This document shows positions 1,789 to 44,243 of a stretch of 64,000 bases of DNA, one piece after another. The notes beneath the pieces are model-generated. The model saw only the letters and a program-made list of their open reading frames with translations, was not told the origin of the DNA and did not search any database. The position numbers and the translations under genes are program-made. Numbering within the stretch: position 1 is the stretch's first letter; the number at the start of each line of letters is the position of its first letter. Source of the stretch: Aquibium microcysteis (GTDB lineage: Bacteria; Pseudomonadota; Alphaproteobacteria; Rhizobiales; Rhizobiaceae); the NCBI RefSeq assembly GCF_014495845.1, contig NZ_CP061080.1, forward strand, positions 5,942,001 to 6,006,000, given 5' to 3'.

Positions 1789-2964
1789 ATGGCGCAGCCG
1801 CGGCCCGTCATCATGGTGTTCGTCCGCTACTACCTGCCCGGCTACCGGTCCGGCGGCCCGATCCGCACGATCGCCAACCTCGTCGAGGCCCTCGGCGACG
1901 CGTTCGATTTCCGGATCGTCACGTCCGACCGCGATGCGACGGACGAGCGGGCCTATGGCGGCGTCGACGTCGACGCGTGGAACCGGGTCGGCAAGGCTTC
2001 GGTCTGGTATGCCAGCCCCGCCGGCCGAAGGCTCCCGGCCCTCGTGCGCCTCGTGCGCGACACGCCGCACGACGCGCTCTACCTGAACAGTTTCTTCGAT
2101 CCCGAATTCACCATCCTGCCGCTCCTCTGCCGCAGGCTGGGATTGTTCCCCCGTCGGCCCTGCCTGCTTGCACCCCGGGGCGAATTCGCCCCGTCGGCGC
2201 TCGCCATCAAACCCGGGAAGAAGAAGGCCTACCTGGCGGCAGCGGCCGCGCTGCGGCTCCACGGACAGGTGCTCTTCCAGGCATCGACCCCGCATGAGCG
2301 TGCGGACGTCCTGCGCATGTTTCCGGCGTCGGCTCCGCGTATCCGGGTGGCGTCCGATCTTCCGGGCCCGCAGGCCGCCGTTCCGGCGACCATGGCGGAG
2401 GAGCGCAGCGGTCCGATCCGCATCTGCTTCCTCTCCCGGATCACGCCGATGAAGAACCTCGACTACGCCATCGACGTGCTGTCGCGGCTGTCCACGCCTG
2501 CCTCGCTCGACATCTACGGCCCCGTGCGCGACGATGCCTATTGGGACCTGTGCAGACGGGCGATCGCCGACCTTCCGCCCCATGTCTCGGCCGTCCATCG
2601 CGGCGAGGTCGAGCATGCCGCGGTCCCGGAGACGCTCGCGCGATACGATCTCTTCTTCCTTCCCACGCGGGGAGAGAATTACGGCCACGTCATTCTGGAA
2701 GCGCTGGCGGCCGGGCTTCCGGTGCTCATCGCCGATACCACGCCCTGGCGCGGACTGGCTTCGACGGGCGCGGGCTGGGACCTGCCGCTGGCGGATCCCG
2801 ATGCCTTCCGGGAAAAGATCGAGGACGTGTCGCGGATGGACCGCGGGCAGCGGCTGCAGCTGCGCGACTCAGCGCTGGCGCTGGCGCGCAGGCATCTGGA
2901 GGATGCATCGACGATCGAGCAGAACCGCCAGCTGCTGCACGACCTGACCGGCAGAGTGGCATGA
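1789..2964 (+). CDS. Family 4 glycosyltransferase (copy 1)
   Basis: A 391-residue GT-B fold glycosyltransferase that should transfer an activated sugar to a lipid-linked or polysaccharide acceptor at the cytoplasmic face of the membrane. The N-terminus carries YYLPGYRSGGPIRTIANL, the donor-independent GT4 glycine loop. The C-terminal half starts at CFLSRITPMKNLDYAI and holds the E-x7-E element in GENYGHVILEALAAGLPV. The start at 1789 is preceded by GGGAGG at good spacing; an earlier ATG at 1699 has no ribosome site. The gene is the first copy of a 1,488-bp tandem duplication. Substrate cannot be told from sequence. Confidence 0.85.
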   Translation: MAQPRPVIMVFVRYYLPGYRSGGPIRTIANLVEALGDAFDFRIVTSDRDATDERAYGGVDVDAWNRVGKASVWYASPAGRRLPALVRLVRDTPHDALYLNSFFDPEFTILPLLCRRLGLFPRRPCLLAPRGEFAPSALAIKPGKKKAYLAAAAALRLHGQVLFQASTPHERADVLRMFPASAPRIRVASDLPGPQAAVPATMAEERSGPIRICFLSRITPMKNLDYAIDVLSRLSTPASLDIYGPVRDDAYWDLCRRAIADLPPHVSAVHRGEVEHAAVPETLARYDLFFLPTRGENYGHVILEALAAGLPVLIADTTPWRGLASTGAGWDLPLADPDAFREKIEDVSRMDRGQRLQLRDSALALARRHLEDASTIEQNRQLLHDLTGRVA

Positions 2965-3303
2965 GCACGGCGTGCCGGGCCCGGCCTGCGTGGGCACGGC
3001 CCGCGCCGCCCGCTTAGGCCGGCACACCGGAGGCCCTCGTCGTCGACCCTCCGCGCCGCCCCTGATACGACTGGCCTCTACCTTCGACCCTCGCGCCGCC
3101 CCTCATCCGCCTGCCGGCACCTTCTCCCCGTAACACGGGGAGAAGAACGCCGTCACCGACGGCTTCGCCGGTCGCAAAGGTCGCCTACCTGGTGCCGATG
3201 TCGCGGCCGTGCCCCCTTCTCTCCGCTTGCGGGGAGAAGGTGCCGGCAGTCGGATGAGGGGCAGCGCTGTGGGTCAATCGAAAAGACCGCTGGTATCATA
3301 CCG
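1816..3303 (+). repeat. Tandem duplication, unit 1 (1,488 bp)
   Basis: Unit 1 runs from codon 10 of the first glycosyltransferase through its 3' intergenic hairpin element. Unit 2 follows directly with a constant offset of 1,488 bp. Apart from the first roughly 45-60 bp, where the units are clearly diverged, the units differ at only scattered bases, and two compensating 1-bp indels lie in the intergenic part. The 339 bp after the gene (2965-3303) hold no further gene. Confidence 0.95.
3095..3267. repeat. RIME-like inverted-repeat element A1
   Basis: The element is bounded by inverted repeats of about 35 bp: GCCCCTCATCCG-type ends, then CTGCCGGCACCTTCTCCCC on the left and its complement on the right. 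An inner hairpin around CTCCCCGTAACACGGGGAG is also present. This is the format of the rhizobial intergenic mosaic elements (RIME) seen in Rhizobiales genomes. It has no coding capacity of its own. Confidence 0.7.
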
Positions 3304-4452
3304 GTGTTCATACGCGATGACCTCCCCGGCTACAGGTCCGGCGGCCCGATCCGAACGATCGCCAACCTCGTCGAGGCCCTCGGCGACGCGTTCGATTTCC
3401 GGATCGTCACGTCCGACCGCGATGCGACGGACGAGCGGGCCTATGGCGGCGTCGACGTCGACGCGTGGAACCGGGTCGGCAAGGCTTCGGTCTGGTATGC
3501 CAGCCCCGCCGGGCGAAGGCTCCCGGCCCTCGTGCGCCTCGTGCGCGACACGCCGCACGACGCGCTCTACCTGAACAGTTTCTTCGATCCCGAATTCACC
3601 ATCCTGCCGCTCCTCTGCCGCAGGCTGGGATTGTTCCCCCGTCGGCCCTGCCTGCTTGCACCCCGGGGCGAATTCGCCCCGTCGGCGCTCGCCATCAAAC
3701 CCGGGAAGAAGAAGGCCTACCTGGCGGCAGCGGCCGCGCTGCGGCTCCACGGACAGGTGCTCTTCCAGGCATCGACCCCGCATGAGCGTGCGGACGTCCT
3801 GCGCATGTTCCCGGCGTCGGCTCCGCGTATCCGGGTGGCGTCCGATCTTCCGGGCCCGCAGGCCGCCGTTCCGGCGACCATGGCGGAGGAGCGCACCGGT
3901 CCGATCCGCATCTGCTTCCTCTCCCGGATCACGCCGATGAAGAACCTCGACTACGCCATCGACGTGCTGTCGCGGCTGTCCACGCCTGCCTCGCTCGACA
4001 TCTACGGCCCCGTGCGCGACGATGCCTATTGGGACCTGTGCAGACGGGCGATCGCCGACCTTCCGCCCCATGTCTCGGCCGTCCATCGCGGCGAGGTCGA
4101 GCATGCCGCGGTCCCGGAGACGCTCGCGCGATACGATCTCTTCTTCCTTCCCACGCGGGGAGAGAATTACGGCCACGTCATTCTGGAAGCGCTGGCGGTC
4201 GGGCTTCCGGTGCTCATCGCCGATACCACGCCCTGGCGCGGACTGGCTTCGACGGGCGCGGGCTGGGACCTGCCGCTGGCGGATCCCGATGCCTTCCGGG
4301 AAAAGATCGAGGACGTGTCGCGGATGGACCGCGGGCAGCGGCTGCAGCTGCGCGACTCAGCGCTGGCGCTGGCGCGCAGGCATCTGGAGGATGCATCGAC
4401 CATCGAGCAGAACCGCCAGCTGCTGCACGACCTGACCGGCAGAGCGGCATGA
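3304..4452 (+). CDS. Family 4 glycosyltransferase (copy 2, altered N-terminus)
   Basis: The second copy of the tandem duplication gives 382 residues from a GTG at 3304. It lacks the first nine residues of copy 1, and its next residues read FIRDDLPGYRSGG instead of FVRYYLPGYRSGG. From there on the two proteins differ by only three substitutions (S to T and A to V internally, V to A near the end). No Shine-Dalgarno precedes the GTG, and the hairpin element lies directly upstream, so expression is doubtful. It may be a functional paralogue with a different start, a pseudogene, or a donor for gene conversion. The GT4 motif GENYGHVILEAL is intact. Confidence 0.65.
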   Translation: MFIRDDLPGYRSGGPIRTIANLVEALGDAFDFRIVTSDRDATDERAYGGVDVDAWNRVGKASVWYASPAGRRLPALVRLVRDTPHDALYLNSFFDPEFTILPLLCRRLGLFPRRPCLLAPRGEFAPSALAIKPGKKKAYLAAAAALRLHGQVLFQASTPHERADVLRMFPASAPRIRVASDLPGPQAAVPATMAEERTGPIRICFLSRITPMKNLDYAIDVLSRLSTPASLDIYGPVRDDAYWDLCRRAIADLPPHVSAVHRGEVEHAAVPETLARYDLFFLPTRGENYGHVILEALAVGLPVLIADTTPWRGLASTGAGWDLPLADPDAFREKIEDVSRMDRGQRLQLRDSALALARRHLEDASTIEQNRQLLHDLTGRAA

Positions 4453-4582
4453 GCACGGCGTGCCCGGCCCGGCCTGCGTGGGCACGGCCCGCGCCGCCCG
4501 CATCGGCCGGCACACCGGAGGCCCTCATCGTCGACCTTCCGCGCCGCCCCTGATACGACTGGCCTCTACCTTCGACCCTCGC

Positions 4583-4755
4583 GCCGCCCCTCATCCGCCT
4601 GCCGGCGTTCTTCTCCCCGTAACACGGGGAGAAGAACGCCGTCACCGACGGCTTCGCCGGTCGCAAAGGTCGCCTACCTGGTGCCGATGTCGCGGCCGTG
4701 CCCCTTCTCCCCGCTTGCGGGGAGAAGGTGCCGGCAGGCGGATGAGGGGCAGCGC
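4583..4755. repeat. RIME-like inverted-repeat element A2
   Basis: The copy of element A1 carried by unit 2 of the duplication. It has the same outer ends (CCTCATCCGCCTGCCGGC and its complement) and the same inner CTTCTCCCC/GGGGAGAAG hairpins, with small base differences. Confidence 0.7.
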
Positions 4756-4785
4756 CGTGGGTCAATCGAAAAGACCGCTGGTATG

Positions 4786-6740: not shown

Positions 6741-6841
6741 GAGAGGTCTTTCATCCTGGAATGAAGCCCCCCGGCTTACCGCAATAAAGGGACATCCACC
6801 GCCGCGTACCGGCCGCGATGCCCGTATATTGCCAAAAGGTT

Positions 6842-6873
6842 CGGGTCCGCAATTGTTAAAAATTGCGGACCCG
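6842..6873 (-). terminator. Perfect 13-bp stem hairpin between porin 1 and the integrase
   Basis: CGGGTCCGCAATT and AATTGCGGACCCG flank a 6-nt loop. Read on the minus strand, the stem begins about 20 nt past the porin stop and is followed by a short AACCTTTT tract, which fits a weak intrinsic terminator. The symmetry would also suit a protein or recombinase binding site upstream of the integrase. Confidence 0.55.
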
Positions 6874-6894
6874 ACGGTCTAGACGCTCAGGCGC

Positions 6895-40817: not shown

Positions 40818-42277
40818 CCTGGGTCATCCTCACCGGCCGCCAGAACGACATCGACCCCTACGCCACGCCGCACAAGATCATCACCAACCGCGACTATCTC
40901 GCGCATCCGGCGCTGTTCAAGGGACAGCGGCCGAAGGTGATCAACCTGTCGAACAGCTACGCCTACCAGAGCCGCGGCTATTACGCCTCGCTGCTTGCCT
41001 CCTCGCGCGGCCACCGCGTCATCCCGACCGTCGAGACCATGATCGACCTGTCGGAGCGCAAGCTCTACGAGCACGCGCTGCCGGAACTCGAACTCGCGCT
41101 CAACAAGTGCCGCAAGGATCTCGGCGGCGTCTTCCCGACAAGGCTCCCGGTCTTCTTCGGCATCGCGCCGTCCAGGGCGACGGACCGATTCGCGAAGCTC
41201 CTCTTCGACTGGTTCCGCGCGCCGGCGCTCGAGGTCTCGATCAAGGACGAGAACGGCTGGGCCGCGATCCGCAAGATCGGCTTCGTTCCGCTCGGCCGGA
41301 TGAAGCCGGAGGAGGAGGCACGATTCCTCGAATGCCTCGCCACCTACACCCAGCGCGAATGGCGCGACACCCGGACCCGGACCCCCTCGCGCTACACCTT
41401 CGCCACGCTTGTCGACCCCAACGAGGAACTCGCCCCCTCGATGGTGTCCTCGCTGCGCCACTGGGCCAAGATCGCCGAGAAGATGGGCGTCGAGGTCGAG
41501 CCGATCGGCAAGAAGGATCTCGCCAGGCTCGCCAACTACGACGCGCTCTTCATCCGCGAGACCACCGCGATCTCCAACCACACCTACCGCTTCGCCCGCC
41601 GCGCGCAGCAGGAGGGCATGCCGGTCATCGACGACCCGATGTCGATGATCCGCTGCACCAACAAGGTCTACCTGAACGAGCTGATGACCGCCAACAAGGT
41701 GCCGGTGCCGCCGTCGGTGATGATCGCGGGCCCCGCCGACTTCGACGTCGCGGCCCAGCGGCTCGGCTTCCCGCTCGTCCTGAAGATCCCCGACGGCTCC
41801 TTTTCGCGCGGCGTCAAGAAGGCCTCCACGCCCGACGAGCTGAAGGCGCTCGCCACCGAGTGGCTCGAATCCTCCGACCTGATCATCGCGCAGAAATACC
41901 TGCCGACGCAGTATGACTGGCGCGTCGGCGTGCTCGGCGGCCAGCCGCTCTTCGCCTGCCATTATCTGATGGCCAAGAAGCACTGGCAGATCGTCAACCA
42001 CGACCGCGCCGGCAAGCCCGACCAGGGCGGCATCAAGCCCTTCCGCCTGAAGGATGCCCCGCCCGAAGTCATCGACACCGCCGTCCGCGCCGCCCGCTGC
42101 ATCGGCGACGGCCTCTACGGCGTCGACCTCAAGGAAACACCCGACGGTGTCTACGTCATCGAGGTCAACGACAACCCCAACCTCGACCACGGCTGGGAAG
42201 ACGCCGCCGAGAAGGATGAGGTCTGGGTCCGCCTCACCCAGTGGTTCCTGGACCGGCTGGAGCGCACGGGGCGGTAG
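40814..42277 (+). CDS. RimK-like ATP-grasp ligase with N-terminal extension
   Basis: A 487-residue enzyme. The C-terminal half, from about residue 270, is an ATP-grasp fold: MIRCTNKVYLNELM, FPLVLKIPDGSFSRGVKK, DLIIAQKYLPTQYDWRVGVL, and the metal-binding end YVIEVNDNPNLDHGWED. This matches RimK-type ligases that add amino acids to a carboxylate with ATP. The N-terminal 200 residues (NLSNSYAYQSRGYYASLLA) resemble an extension seen in this RimK subgroup. It is coupled by ATGA to the GNAT/C39 gene. The substrate is unknown; a peptide or protein C-terminus is a guess. Confidence 0.88.
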   Translation: MTWVILTGRQNDIDPYATPHKIITNRDYLAHPALFKGQRPKVINLSNSYAYQSRGYYASLLASSRGHRVIPTVETMIDLSERKLYEHALPELELALNKCRKDLGGVFPTRLPVFFGIAPSRATDRFAKLLFDWFRAPALEVSIKDENGWAAIRKIGFVPLGRMKPEEEARFLECLATYTQREWRDTRTRTPSRYTFATLVDPNEELAPSMVSSLRHWAKIAEKMGVEVEPIGKKDLARLANYDALFIRETTAISNHTYRFARRAQQEGMPVIDDPMSMIRCTNKVYLNELMTANKVPVPPSVMIAGPADFDVAAQRLGFPLVLKIPDGSFSRGVKKASTPDELKALATEWLESSDLIIAQKYLPTQYDWRVGVLGGQPLFACHYLMAKKHWQIVNHDRAGKPDQGGIKPFRLKDAPPEVIDTAVRAARCIGDGLYGVDLKETPDGVYVIEVNDNPNLDHGWEDAAEKDEVWVRLTQWFLDRLERTGR

Positions 42278-42292
42278 GCGCGAATGGAGGCG

Positions 42293-42314
42293 ACACGGAC
42301 ACCGGTGTCGGTGT
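42293..42314. promoter_or_regulatory. 22-bp near-perfect palindrome before the PRTase-SLOG operon
   Basis: ACACGGACACC/GGTGTCGGTGT pairs at 10 of 11 positions, with a perfect central GACACCGGTGTC. It ends 33 bp before the PRTase start in a 70-bp intergenic space, the place expected for an operator or for a leader hairpin. Confidence 0.5.
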
Positions 42315-42347
42315 ATCCTGCCGTTGTTCCCTGGGACGGCAAGCGGG

Positions 42348-42923
42348 ATGAAGTTCGAAATCCACGGCCGGTGGCGAAAGGGCTATGCGTTCGATCTCCA
42401 CACGCTCGCCAGCACCTATCTCGGGCCGGATGAATTCGGTCATGATCGCTTCGAGAGCAAGCGAAGCGAGATGGGCGAACTCGTCTATCGGCTCAAGTAC
42501 CAGAACGACCGAACCGCCATTCCGCAGATCATCCGCCTCCTCGATGGTATCGGAGGGATCGAGAAGTTCGCCGCGATCGTTCCCGTGCCATCGTCGAACG
42601 GGGCTCGTCCGTTCCAGCCAGTGGACGAGATCGCGCTGGCGCTTGGCGAAAGCCGGAATGTGCCGGTCCTGGCAGGCTTCCTGCGCAAGTCCGGTGCAAT
42701 GGAACTCAAGAACGTAGGCGATCCGGAAGAAAGGCGCTCGCTTCTGGCGGGTTCGATTTCGGTTGCGGGCCGTCAGACGCTCGAGGGCAAGCATGTGCTT
42801 CTGGTCGACGATCTGTACAGGTCGGGAGCAACGCTCGATGCCTGCTGTTCGGTCCTGCTTGACGATGCAAAGGTTGCGAGCGTCTGTGCTCTCACGATGA
42901 CCATGACGAGGAGCAAGCGATGA
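42348..42923 (+). CDS. Phosphoribosyltransferase-fold protein (ComF-like)
   Basis: A 191-residue protein with a type I PRTase fold. The PRPP-binding motif is HVLLVDDLYRSGATL at 149-163, preceded by FAAIVPVPSSNGARPFQPVDEIA. An N-terminal stretch with LYRLKY-like VYRLKYQND resembles ComF, but the usual ComF zinc cysteines are missing. The base or acceptor is unknown. It overlaps by 4 bp the SLOG gene, and composition is less GC-rich than its neighbours. The start has only a weak GGG ribosome site. Confidence 0.8.
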   Translation: MKFEIHGRWRKGYAFDLHTLASTYLGPDEFGHDRFESKRSEMGELVYRLKYQNDRTAIPQIIRLLDGIGGIEKFAAIVPVPSSNGARPFQPVDEIALALGESRNVPVLAGFLRKSGAMELKNVGDPEERRSLLAGSISVAGRQTLEGKHVLLVDDLYRSGATLDACCSVLLDDAKVASVCALTMTMTRSKR

Positions 42924-43480
42924 CGACCGTCTTCCTATCGGGTTCCCGCAGCGTGAACCGGCTCGACGACGCGATCCGCGACCGCATCCGCCGGATGATG
43001 GATCAGGAGTTCGCCATCGTCATCGGCGACGCCAGCGGCGCTGACAAGGCCATGCAGATTCATCTCGCTGCGAATGGCTATCGGAACGTCACCGTCTTCT
43101 GCGCCGGCCAGACGTGCCGCAACAATGTGGGCGAATGGCCGACGAGACACGTCGAGGTTCCTTCGTCACTGTCCGGTCGCGATTTCTACACGGTGAAGGA
43201 CAAGGCCATGGCGGGTCACGCCGACTACGGCTTCGTTCTCTGGGACGGGAAGAGCGCAGGCTCGATCAACAACGTTCTCGAACTCGTCAGGCAGGGAAAG
43301 TCGGTCGTCGTCCACCTCTCGACCACCCGAAACTTCGCCGTGGTGAAGACCGCCGAGGACATCGCGCGCCTGCTCGAACTCTGCGACCGCGACGACTATC
43401 TCGATATCGCCAGGAAGACCAACCTCACCCGAACGATGGCCGAGATCGGCCGGGCAGGGCAGGCGACGCTGAACCTGTAG
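42920..43480 (+). CDS. SLOG-fold (DprA/YspA-like) nucleotide-binding protein
   Basis: A 186-residue Rossmann-like protein. GSRSV at 8-12 and GDASGADKAM at 36-45 are the phosphate-binding SLOG motifs, and YGFVLWDGKSAGSINNV at 103-119 is the third conserved block. SLOG proteins are thought to bind or make nucleotide-derived ligands and turn up in conflict systems. Coupling with a PRTase suggests a two-step nucleotide pathway. About 60 C-terminal residues lie outside the core (NFAVVKTAEDIARLLEL). Function is inferred from fold and pairing only. Confidence 0.82.
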   Translation: MTTVFLSGSRSVNRLDDAIRDRIRRMMDQEFAIVIGDASGADKAMQIHLAANGYRNVTVFCAGQTCRNNVGEWPTRHVEVPSSLSGRDFYTVKDKAMAGHADYGFVLWDGKSAGSINNVLELVRQGKSVVVHLSTTRNFAVVKTAEDIARLLELCDRDDYLDIARKTNLTRTMAEIGRAGQATLNL

Positions 43481-43502
43481 CGGGGGAACCTCCATCGGCC
43501 GC

Positions 43503-44243
43503 TCAGCCCACCAGCGCCGCCACCGCCAGGCTCGCGCCCATCAGCGCCACCGCCGCGACCACGAACGCCGCGTCCCGCTTTCCCGCTCGCGGCGCGCCCG
43601 TCACCGTGCGCTGCGGCCCGGCGCCCAGTCCGCGCGCTTCCATGGCGATGGCCGAGCGGGACGCGCGGCGGATGGCGTAGGCGAGCAGCGGCACGACCAG
43701 CGCGGCGGCCTCGCCGGGGCCGGGGATGCGGCGCGGCGGGCGGCCCCGTCGCATGGCCCGCGCCAGCCGCATCTGCCGCGCCTCGCCGACGAGGTCCGGC
43801 ACCAGATGCAGCGCCGAGAACAGCGCGTAGCCGATCGACGGCGGCAGCCGCCACGAGACCATCATCGCCTTGATCAGCTGGCCGGGGTCGGTCGTCAGCG
43901 CAAACAGCGCCGAGACCATGCCGCAGGCGATCGCCCGCAGGAACAGCACGATGCCGGCCGACAGCGCCGCGCCGCCGAAGGGCGATTCCGACGCCACGTG
44001 CAGCGCGAAGTCGCTCTCCTGCCGGAACAGCACCGACGTGGTGAGGAAGCCGAAGCCGAACAGCGCGAAGGGAACCATCAGCGCCAGCACGAGAAGCGGC
44101 GAGCGGCGCTCGGCGAGGATCAGCGCCAGCGCCGCGACCAGGATCGTCGCCAGCTGGAAGACCGCGTCGAAGACCAGGATCGAGGCCGCGATCCAGACGA
44201 GGCAGACGACCATCCTGGGCAGCGGATGCAGCGCGCTCAGCAT
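43503..44243 (-). CDS. ykoC: ECF transporter transmembrane (T) component, YkoC/CbiQ-like
   Basis: A 246-residue membrane scaffold of an energy-coupling-factor importer. Five to six hydrophobic segments are visible. The two coupling-helix arginine motifs appear as ALFSALHLVPDLVGEARQMRLARAMRRG and AIRRASRSAIAMEARGLG. It is the last gene of the ykoFEDC-type operon and overlaps the ATPase gene by 7 bp. Confidence 0.9.
   Translation of the reverse strand: MLSALHPLPRMVVCLVWIAASILVFDAVFQLATILVAALALILAERRSPLLVLALMVPFALFGFGFLTTSVLFRQESDFALHVASESPFGGAALSAGIVLFLRAIACGMVSALFALTTDPGQLIKAMMVSWRLPPSIGYALFSALHLVPDLVGEARQMRLARAMRRGRPPRRIPGPGEAAALVVPLLAYAIRRASRSAIAMEARGLGAGPQRTVTGAPRAGKRDAAFVVAAVALMGASLAVAALVG

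Follow-up and report, generated by a model that had tools for sequence, protein, structure and literature searches.

The PRTase–SLOG gene pair of Aquibium microcysteis is probably, at roughly three chances in four, a mobile toxin–antitoxin module of the abortive-infection type, one of the class of phosphoribosyltransferase (PRTase) and DprA-like SLOG pairs that includes ShosTA, PsyrTA and RqlHI. This reading is supported by the inheritance of both genes as a single 1.2-kb unit, the conserved PRPP loop of the PRTase, SLOG relatives that are linked to antitoxins, and SLOG genes that have outlived their PRTase. The pair is a compact, PRTase-first form with a SLOG protein that the PADLOC ShosA and PsyrA models miss, and it would extend the PRTase/DprA-like class to a module of two proteins shorter than 200 aa. 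Proteins this small should be useful for studying how PRTase toxins poison cells.

The inserted gene pair and its proteins

A preliminary description of the window, by which we mean the whole 64-kb stretch of DNA analysed, reported a stand-alone PRTase gene overlapping a SLOG-like gene by 4 bp, starting 33 bp after a 22-bp palindrome, flanked by unrelated genes and lower in GC content. Each of these points was borne out (Table 1). The open reading frames share the bases ATGA and encode the motifs VLLVDDLYRSGATL in the PRTase and GSRSV and GDASGADKAM in the SLOG-like protein. On either side lies a gene pointing towards the pair, one ATP-grasp-like and one for a transporter (both identified by eye); in two sister species these genes join directly.

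Table 1. Features of the window, in window coordinates
Feature	Position	Strand	Remarks
Inserted unit	42283..43494	+	spans the leader, the palindrome and the two genes (1,212 bp); sister species G004 and G003 lack it at this site
Near-palindrome	42293..42314	.	22 bp; possible operator
PRTase gene (ComF-like type I phosphoribosyltransferase)	42348..42923	+	191 aa; putative toxin/effector
SLOG-like gene (probably DprA-type Rossmannoid protein)	42920..43480	+	186 aa; putative antitoxin/sensor
Repeats	1808-3595 and 3121-4784		period 1,488-1,489 bp, a tandem duplication; 300-nt copies 96% alike, a 95-nt pair 100%, an 84-nt pair 96%
Inverted repeat TCGGGTCCGCAATTGTTAAAAATTGCGGACCCGA	6841-6874		34 bp; perhaps a terminator

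The insertion was delimited by a DNA search of genomes of the same genus with window positions 41400-44240 as the query. Query stretches 1-883 and 2096-2841 are separated by 8 bp in one sister species (G004), and stretches 1-877 and 2099-2229 by 5 bp in the other (G003), so the unit between them is missing from both. Two further members of the genus hold only distant SLOGs elsewhere (35% identity); the upstream gene is present in one with a different continuation (G001), and its continuation ends at a contig end in the other (G002). Given this absence from the four relatives searched and the lower GC content of the insert (61.6% versus 68.8% for the whole window, with 2.9% of 1,212-bp stretches equally low), we infer a gain in the A. 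microcysteis lineage rather than a loss in its relatives.

The PRTase has a confidently predicted structure (pLDDT 90), and K50, R87, K121, D154, D155 and G160, the last three in the PRPP loop, are among the residues invariant in 22 diverse members. Its matches to general families fall below their cut-offs, with 24.6 bits against 26.3 for Pfam PF00156 and 36.7 bits (E 3.8e-9) against a curated 233.55 for NCBIfam comF (TIGR00201). The PADLOC ShosT model PDLC03962 gives a weak match of 28.8 bits (E 2.5e-7). We rejected this match as proof of ShosTA membership because the model is insufficiently specific: it also matches Caulobacter and 31 of 299 genomes, A. microcysteis included, and of the 30 others G708 (locus L054) was the one inspected.

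The SLOG-like protein is likely, though not proven, to be a DprA-type SLOG, as judged from sequence comparison. Its predicted structure (pLDDT 94) has strands alternating with helices in an order that fits a Rossmannoid fold, and residues invariant across 33 diverse members include G8, G36-D37-A38, G40, D42, R67, W73, K93-D94, W108, S112, G114 and N118. DprA (PF02481) is the commonest Pfam match among these 33 proteins, weakly so in 16 (E <= 0.5, best 1.4e-4); the window protein itself reaches E 0.045 and 13.4 bits, short of the gathering score of 29.6. No PADLOC family, the ShosA and PsyrA models included, matches it at E <= 1, and a distant member on a Listeria plasmid (L039) matches ShosA at 0.0026 at best. 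A profile of diverse SLOGs aligned with ShosA in register over 127 columns (P 0.031, a weak comparison); a narrower profile matched ShosA out of register (P 0.0054) and a single ShosA in register (P 0.0055). Comparison with a DUF2493 protein gave a match of only 27 columns. A sequence search for relatives of solved structure found none, the two matches at E about 2 being to a phage head decoration protein.

The near-palindrome ACACGGACACCGGTGTCGGTGT pairs at 10 of 11 positions and is centred 44 bp before the PRTase ATG. Such a palindrome is unusual at this site: when the 120 bp preceding the ATG were shuffled by dinucleotides, 1 of 200 shuffles did as well. The window as a whole, however, contains 16 gapless palindromes of the same or better score, this one included; no other copy occurs in the genome within 3 mismatches. 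Operator-like palindromes also precede the PRTase gene at loci where the SLOG carries a fused helix-turn-helix (HTH) domain (L033, L040, L088 and L094, with L088 counted by annotation and L094 by its near-identity to L040), with centres 32-66 bp before the ATG; the one at HTH-fused L034 is imperfect. Of these, L040, L088 and L094 share ATACAAAATTTTGTAT or a near variant, and L033 and L034 share a TGTAACC/GGCTACA palindrome. The window palindrome is placed like those of the HTH-fused members, yet the window SLOG has no HTH. No palindrome reached the threshold in L010, L011, L018, L020, L025, L027-L031, L035, L036, L038, L039, L089, L096 or L131-L134, and those in L026, L092 and L097 are unrelated to the window palindrome. 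HTH-less relatives do not share the window palindrome, and the genome has just this one copy. It could serve as an operator, bound by the complex or by an unlinked regulator, or be due to chance. The leader gave no sign of RNA structure (z -0.88), and a scan for sigma-70 promoters and terminators found none.

Linkage of the two genes and other partners of the SLOG domain

Across 398 Pseudomonadota genomes, the SLOG (profile A3) and the PRTase (profile A4) each occur in 7, and these are the same 7, at neighbouring coordinates, with A. microcysteis among them. The joint search for conserved adjacency that the preliminary description had proposed thus came out in favour of a linked pair. In a sample of the class, 6 of 385 genomes hold the SLOG, again including A. 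microcysteis, and the PRTase adjoins it in all 6. Evolutionary distances of the two proteins correlate in a mirror-tree analysis of 33 loci (r 0.859; 0 of 2000 permutations). Homologues living apart, named beforehand as the case that would weaken the idea of a system, were not seen for intact PRTases: none lacked a SLOG among the loci examined.

The reverse situation does occur. Among 19 SLOG loci on genome contigs, the PRTase directly upstream is complete or nearly so in 10 (L010, L011, L014, L017, L018, L020, L022, L025, L026 and L027; that of L014 is cut by the contig start, and the first residues of that of L022 lie in another frame). It is a remnant in 5: the first 72 residues, continuing into the frame of the SLOG, in L009; the last 29 in L012; the last 39 in L021; only about 20 in L023; and a further remnant in L019. 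No trace was found in the other 4 (L013, L015, L016 and L024), L015 having only 258 bp upstream. The SLOG beside a remnant is full or nearly full in L009, L012, L021, L023 and L090, and cut near the contig end in L019. The pair has features of type II-like toxin–antitoxin systems, namely co-inheritance of two genes in a putative operon, as seen in the overlap and linkage, and, among the loci examined, a putative antitoxin that outlasts the putative toxin, which does not occur alone.

Plasmids and viral contigs gave a similar picture. The pair occurs in several phyla, and the plasmids that carry it include those of Enterobacteriaceae and rhizobia. A plasmid search returned the PRTase in 64 records (60 listed) and the SLOG in 98 (75 listed). 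Of the 60 listed PRTase records, 49 recur in the SLOG listing, where the two matched stretches lie no more than 23 bp apart by the listed positions; in 4 of these 49, from Agrobacterium vitis and Allorhizobium, the PRTase is partial or in two pieces. Five further records proved to hold a SLOG after fetching (L038, L039, L088, L125 and L126), and two (L123 and L124) have a broken PRTase with no SLOG within the fetched stretch; 4 listed and 4 unlisted PRTase records stand outside this count. The PRTase is present in 5 viral contigs, all with an adjacent SLOG (the PRTase of L135 is incomplete); a viral scan with the SLOG profile and a tblastn search of the SLOG in phages found none. In the viral contigs L132, L133 and L134 the pair lies directly behind an integrase-like ORF (by eye), seemingly a position for cargo genes at the ends of prophages. 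The SLOGs of L010 and L011 are very close on the tree and come from bins labelled Fermentibacteria and Lentisphaerota, seemingly of one metagenome study, which points to recent transfer or a binning error.

SLOG relatives also keep other company. In Thiothrix lacustris (L012) the SLOG carries a fused YhfG domain (PF10832, 1.3e-15) and a Fic gene comes next (1.6e-15), and a second Thiothrix locus (L013) is alike by eye; in L016 a Fic-like ORF lies farther along. The order at L012:108-2488 is a transposase-like ORF (by eye), the PRTase remnant, SLOG-YhfG and Fic. Because the Fic-linked SLOGs nest among PRTase-linked ones on the tree, they suggest partner exchange. On the Methylobacterium plasmid pVL1_1 the genes after the SLOG encode a VapB-like protein and a PIN toxin. 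Elsewhere the PRTase is kept and the SLOG extended, by a C-terminal HI1420-type antidote HTH on Agrobacterium and Xanthomonas plasmids (dnstrm_HI1420, 1.6e-21 and 7.5e-23) or by HTH_37 in Sinorhizobium (1.8e-19); Allorhizobium pAtS4c has a SLOG-HTH beside pieces of a PRTase. In Thiolinea (L024) the SLOG is flanked by one hsdS-like gene (by eye) and one hsdM-like gene, a position where the related locus L026 holds the whole pair; the hsdM-like gene matches NCBIfam hsdM at 1e-25 and, better, the MAD2 methyltransferase at 2.7e-30, both under cut-off. Finally, a PRTase-less SLOG clade comprises L085 and L086, from Mesorhizobium and Shinella plasmids, and L002-L008, from contigs of relatives (of which the tree took in L002, L004 and L005). 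On the tree, where the branches here are long, this clade, L084 and the SLOG linked to VapBC fall close to the HTH-fused SLOGs. The SLOGs of L085 and L086 adjoin DUF2493 and DUF736 genes.

These alternative partners and PRTase-less SLOGs count against a strict one-partner model. They also bear on the proposal of the preliminary description that the PRTase makes a nucleotide, here taken to include a derivative of one, that the SLOG protein senses or cleaves. Cleavage is disfavoured because an invariant Asn, N118, occupies what by eye would be the position of the catalytic Glu in LOG enzymes. It is also unlikely that the SLOG is dedicated to reading what the PRTase makes, because related SLOGs are fused to or directly precede Fic and VapBC antitoxins and are retained where the PRTase is a remnant. 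By eye, the loci listed share no third gene that could act as an effector. The conserved PRPP loop does agree with a nucleotide signal, and nucleotide sensing or hydrolysis is the role described for SLOG domains in other settings (PMC9503650, in excerpt); set against the persistence of SLOGs without an intact PRTase and with other toxins, and against ShosTA and RqlHI being toxin–antitoxin pairs in the excerpted literature, we consider such a signalling unit unlikely. What stands of the original suggestion of a compact signalling or immunity unit is the conserved mobile unit, carried by plasmids and viral contigs and in some cases set in defence neighbourhoods; its nucleotide-signal mechanism found no support.

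The range of partners also allows a wider proposal, which we offer tentatively as a possibility. The SLOG may be a portable infection-sensing antitoxin domain, small and DprA-derived, plugged onto unrelated toxins (PRTases, Fic proteins, VapC-type nucleases and perhaps type I restriction–modification systems), with one release cue (such as phage ssDNA or a nucleotide). If so, 'SLOG-gated' defence modules would form a whole family, with the PRTase–SLOG pair as its commonest member. The swaps among Fic, VapBC and HTH antitoxins make it a testable claim that the DprA-type SLOG is a general antitoxin or sensor part.

Defence neighbourhoods, proposed mechanism and remaining alternatives

Several loci place the pair among defence genes. 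In genome G668, PADLOC places the pair between a CBASS cyclase (1.3e-111) with a SAVED-HNH-type effector (7e-162) and the Lamassu genes for LmuB (E 0) and LmuA (1.2e-253), and Sinorhizobium plasmid pSmeAK21b carries a SLOG nearly identical to that of G668, with similar genes around it (nucleotidyltransferase, HNH, SIR2). At L113:3277-15475, CBASS genes, an ORF that is SIR2-like by its likeness to L040, a PRTase-SLOG-HTH unit and Lamassu genes lie side by side; the block on the Sinorhizobium plasmid of L040 is similar, with no Lamassu in view. Genome G594 has Gabija GajA, with one internal stop, within about 6 kb of the pair, and DarT was confirmed near L021, with DarT/DarG near L011 by eye. 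Annotation places restriction–modification genes close to the pair on four plasmids, those of L036, L089, L125 and L126.

In a controlled neighbour count, named systems lay near 2 of 10 loci versus 0 of 7 control regions (with 25 of the 74 matched test families listed), a difference that is suggestive, not significant, and comes from too few loci for enrichment. The control regions match the candidate-defence models PDC-M41A/B and PDC-M30B and generic ones (mad3, PsyrT). The test list comprised 120 ORFs after removal of 20 from the PRTase/SLOG region and the control list 92, to which control region L116 contributed only 2; both lists were restricted to ORFs of at most 1,100 aa. The defence-island check raised in the preliminary description is thus answered in part: CBASS, Lamassu, Gabija or DarT lie near some loci, and no defence neighbours of any kind were seen by eye at the window locus.

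By analogy with reports on ShosT and on the PRTase domain of RqlH, a free PRTase would use PRPP and upset nucleotide pools, probably those of purines, causing DNA damage and growth arrest. The SLOG, made from an overlapping and probably translation-coupled gene, would bind the PRTase and keep it inactive, and would release it once phage infection or DNA stress changes the cue that it senses, ssDNA or a nucleotide. Selection would then act through phage defence, addiction of the carrier element, or both. The available excerpts describe the RqlH PRTase domain as genotoxic, with toxicity largely dependent on the Asp of the PRPP pocket, and RqlI as binding and restraining it (PMC4670107). According to a review, ShosT disturbs purine metabolism, ShosA is DNA-binding, and T7 Gp0.7 acts as a trigger (PMC12593503, in part); intermediates of replication or recombination may be what ShosTA responds to (PMC10732053, in part).

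The same toxin–antitoxin biochemistry could serve a purely selfish plasmid or prophage addiction module, kept by post-segregational killing with no role in defence. Carriage by viral contigs and by plasmids, 40 of the 64 PRTase records being typed conjugative, fits this idea, as do replication or partition genes near the pair in L035, L088 and L124. We nevertheless give it a low probability, given that the chromosomal insert at the window locus has no mobility genes of its own, that CBASS, Lamassu and other defence genes neighbour some loci, and that relatives defend against phage: a DprA and PRTase pair in P2-like prophages reportedly protects E. coli against T7 and lambda (PMC9122126, in excerpt). 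A DNA-uptake accessory pair of ComF and DprA-like proteins, suggested by the DprA-like SLOG and by the names ComF or ComFC that sources give to some of these PRTases, is very improbable and was rejected on distribution, which is patchy (6/385 and 7/398 genomes) and extends to plasmids, viral contigs and, in some relatives, toxin partners; the comF cut-off is also missed by far, and the genome holds another DprA-family gene (L127) besides ShosA.

Comparison with known systems

DprA homologues are described as antitoxins in shosTA, psyrTA (printed 'syrTA') and rqlHI in the excerpt of PMC9122126; the excerpt of PMC7824862 describes no such PRTase-DprA pair. Among open-licence PMC texts, no paper was found that joins ComF, SLOG and antitoxin, and none among the matches listed sets a ComF family protein alongside an antitoxin or addiction module antidote. 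Panacea (DUF4065) is likewise a single antitoxin-side domain that occurs with several toxin folds, but it is a different domain, and the terms SLOG, DprA, PRTase and phosphoribosyl have counts of 0 in the portion of PMC8832971 used. FicT with its YhfG-type antitoxin, VapBC and HI1420-type antidotes are connected more directly, through SLOG relatives fused to or directly preceding their antitoxins; the toxins are other ones, however, and the window SLOG has no such extra domain.

PsyrTA and RqlHI resemble the window pair in gene order, rqlH lying upstream of rqlI, and in the toxicity residing in the PRTase domain of RqlH, as far as the excerpted accounts go. The window PRTase aligns with the C-terminal part of PsyrT (model positions 537-687 of 689; E 2e-10, a weak match). 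In contrast, the PRTase of those systems is fused to a RecQ-like helicase, whereas the window PRTase stands alone, and the window SLOG neither matches PsyrA nor has the C-terminal HTH that the partial source reports for RqlI.

ShosTA likewise combines a stand-alone PRTase with an overlapping or abutting SLOG/DprA-type partner, and it too is mobile and linked to defence. Its gene order is reversed, the ShosA gene coming first in both L054 and L082, and ShosA is longer (295 and 245 aa) than the window SLOG. The window PRTase is also only weakly ShosT-like, its score on PDLC03962 comparing with 163.7 bits for L054 and 43.9 bits for L082. The latter is a ShosTA pair elsewhere in the A. microcysteis genome (G000:C1, about 3.1318-3.1330 Mb), where ShosA (245 aa; PADLOC 4.6e-68) is followed by an overlapping ShosT (238 aa; 6e-12). 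With this ShosTA pair already in the genome, the window pair would be its second module of the class, and a different one.
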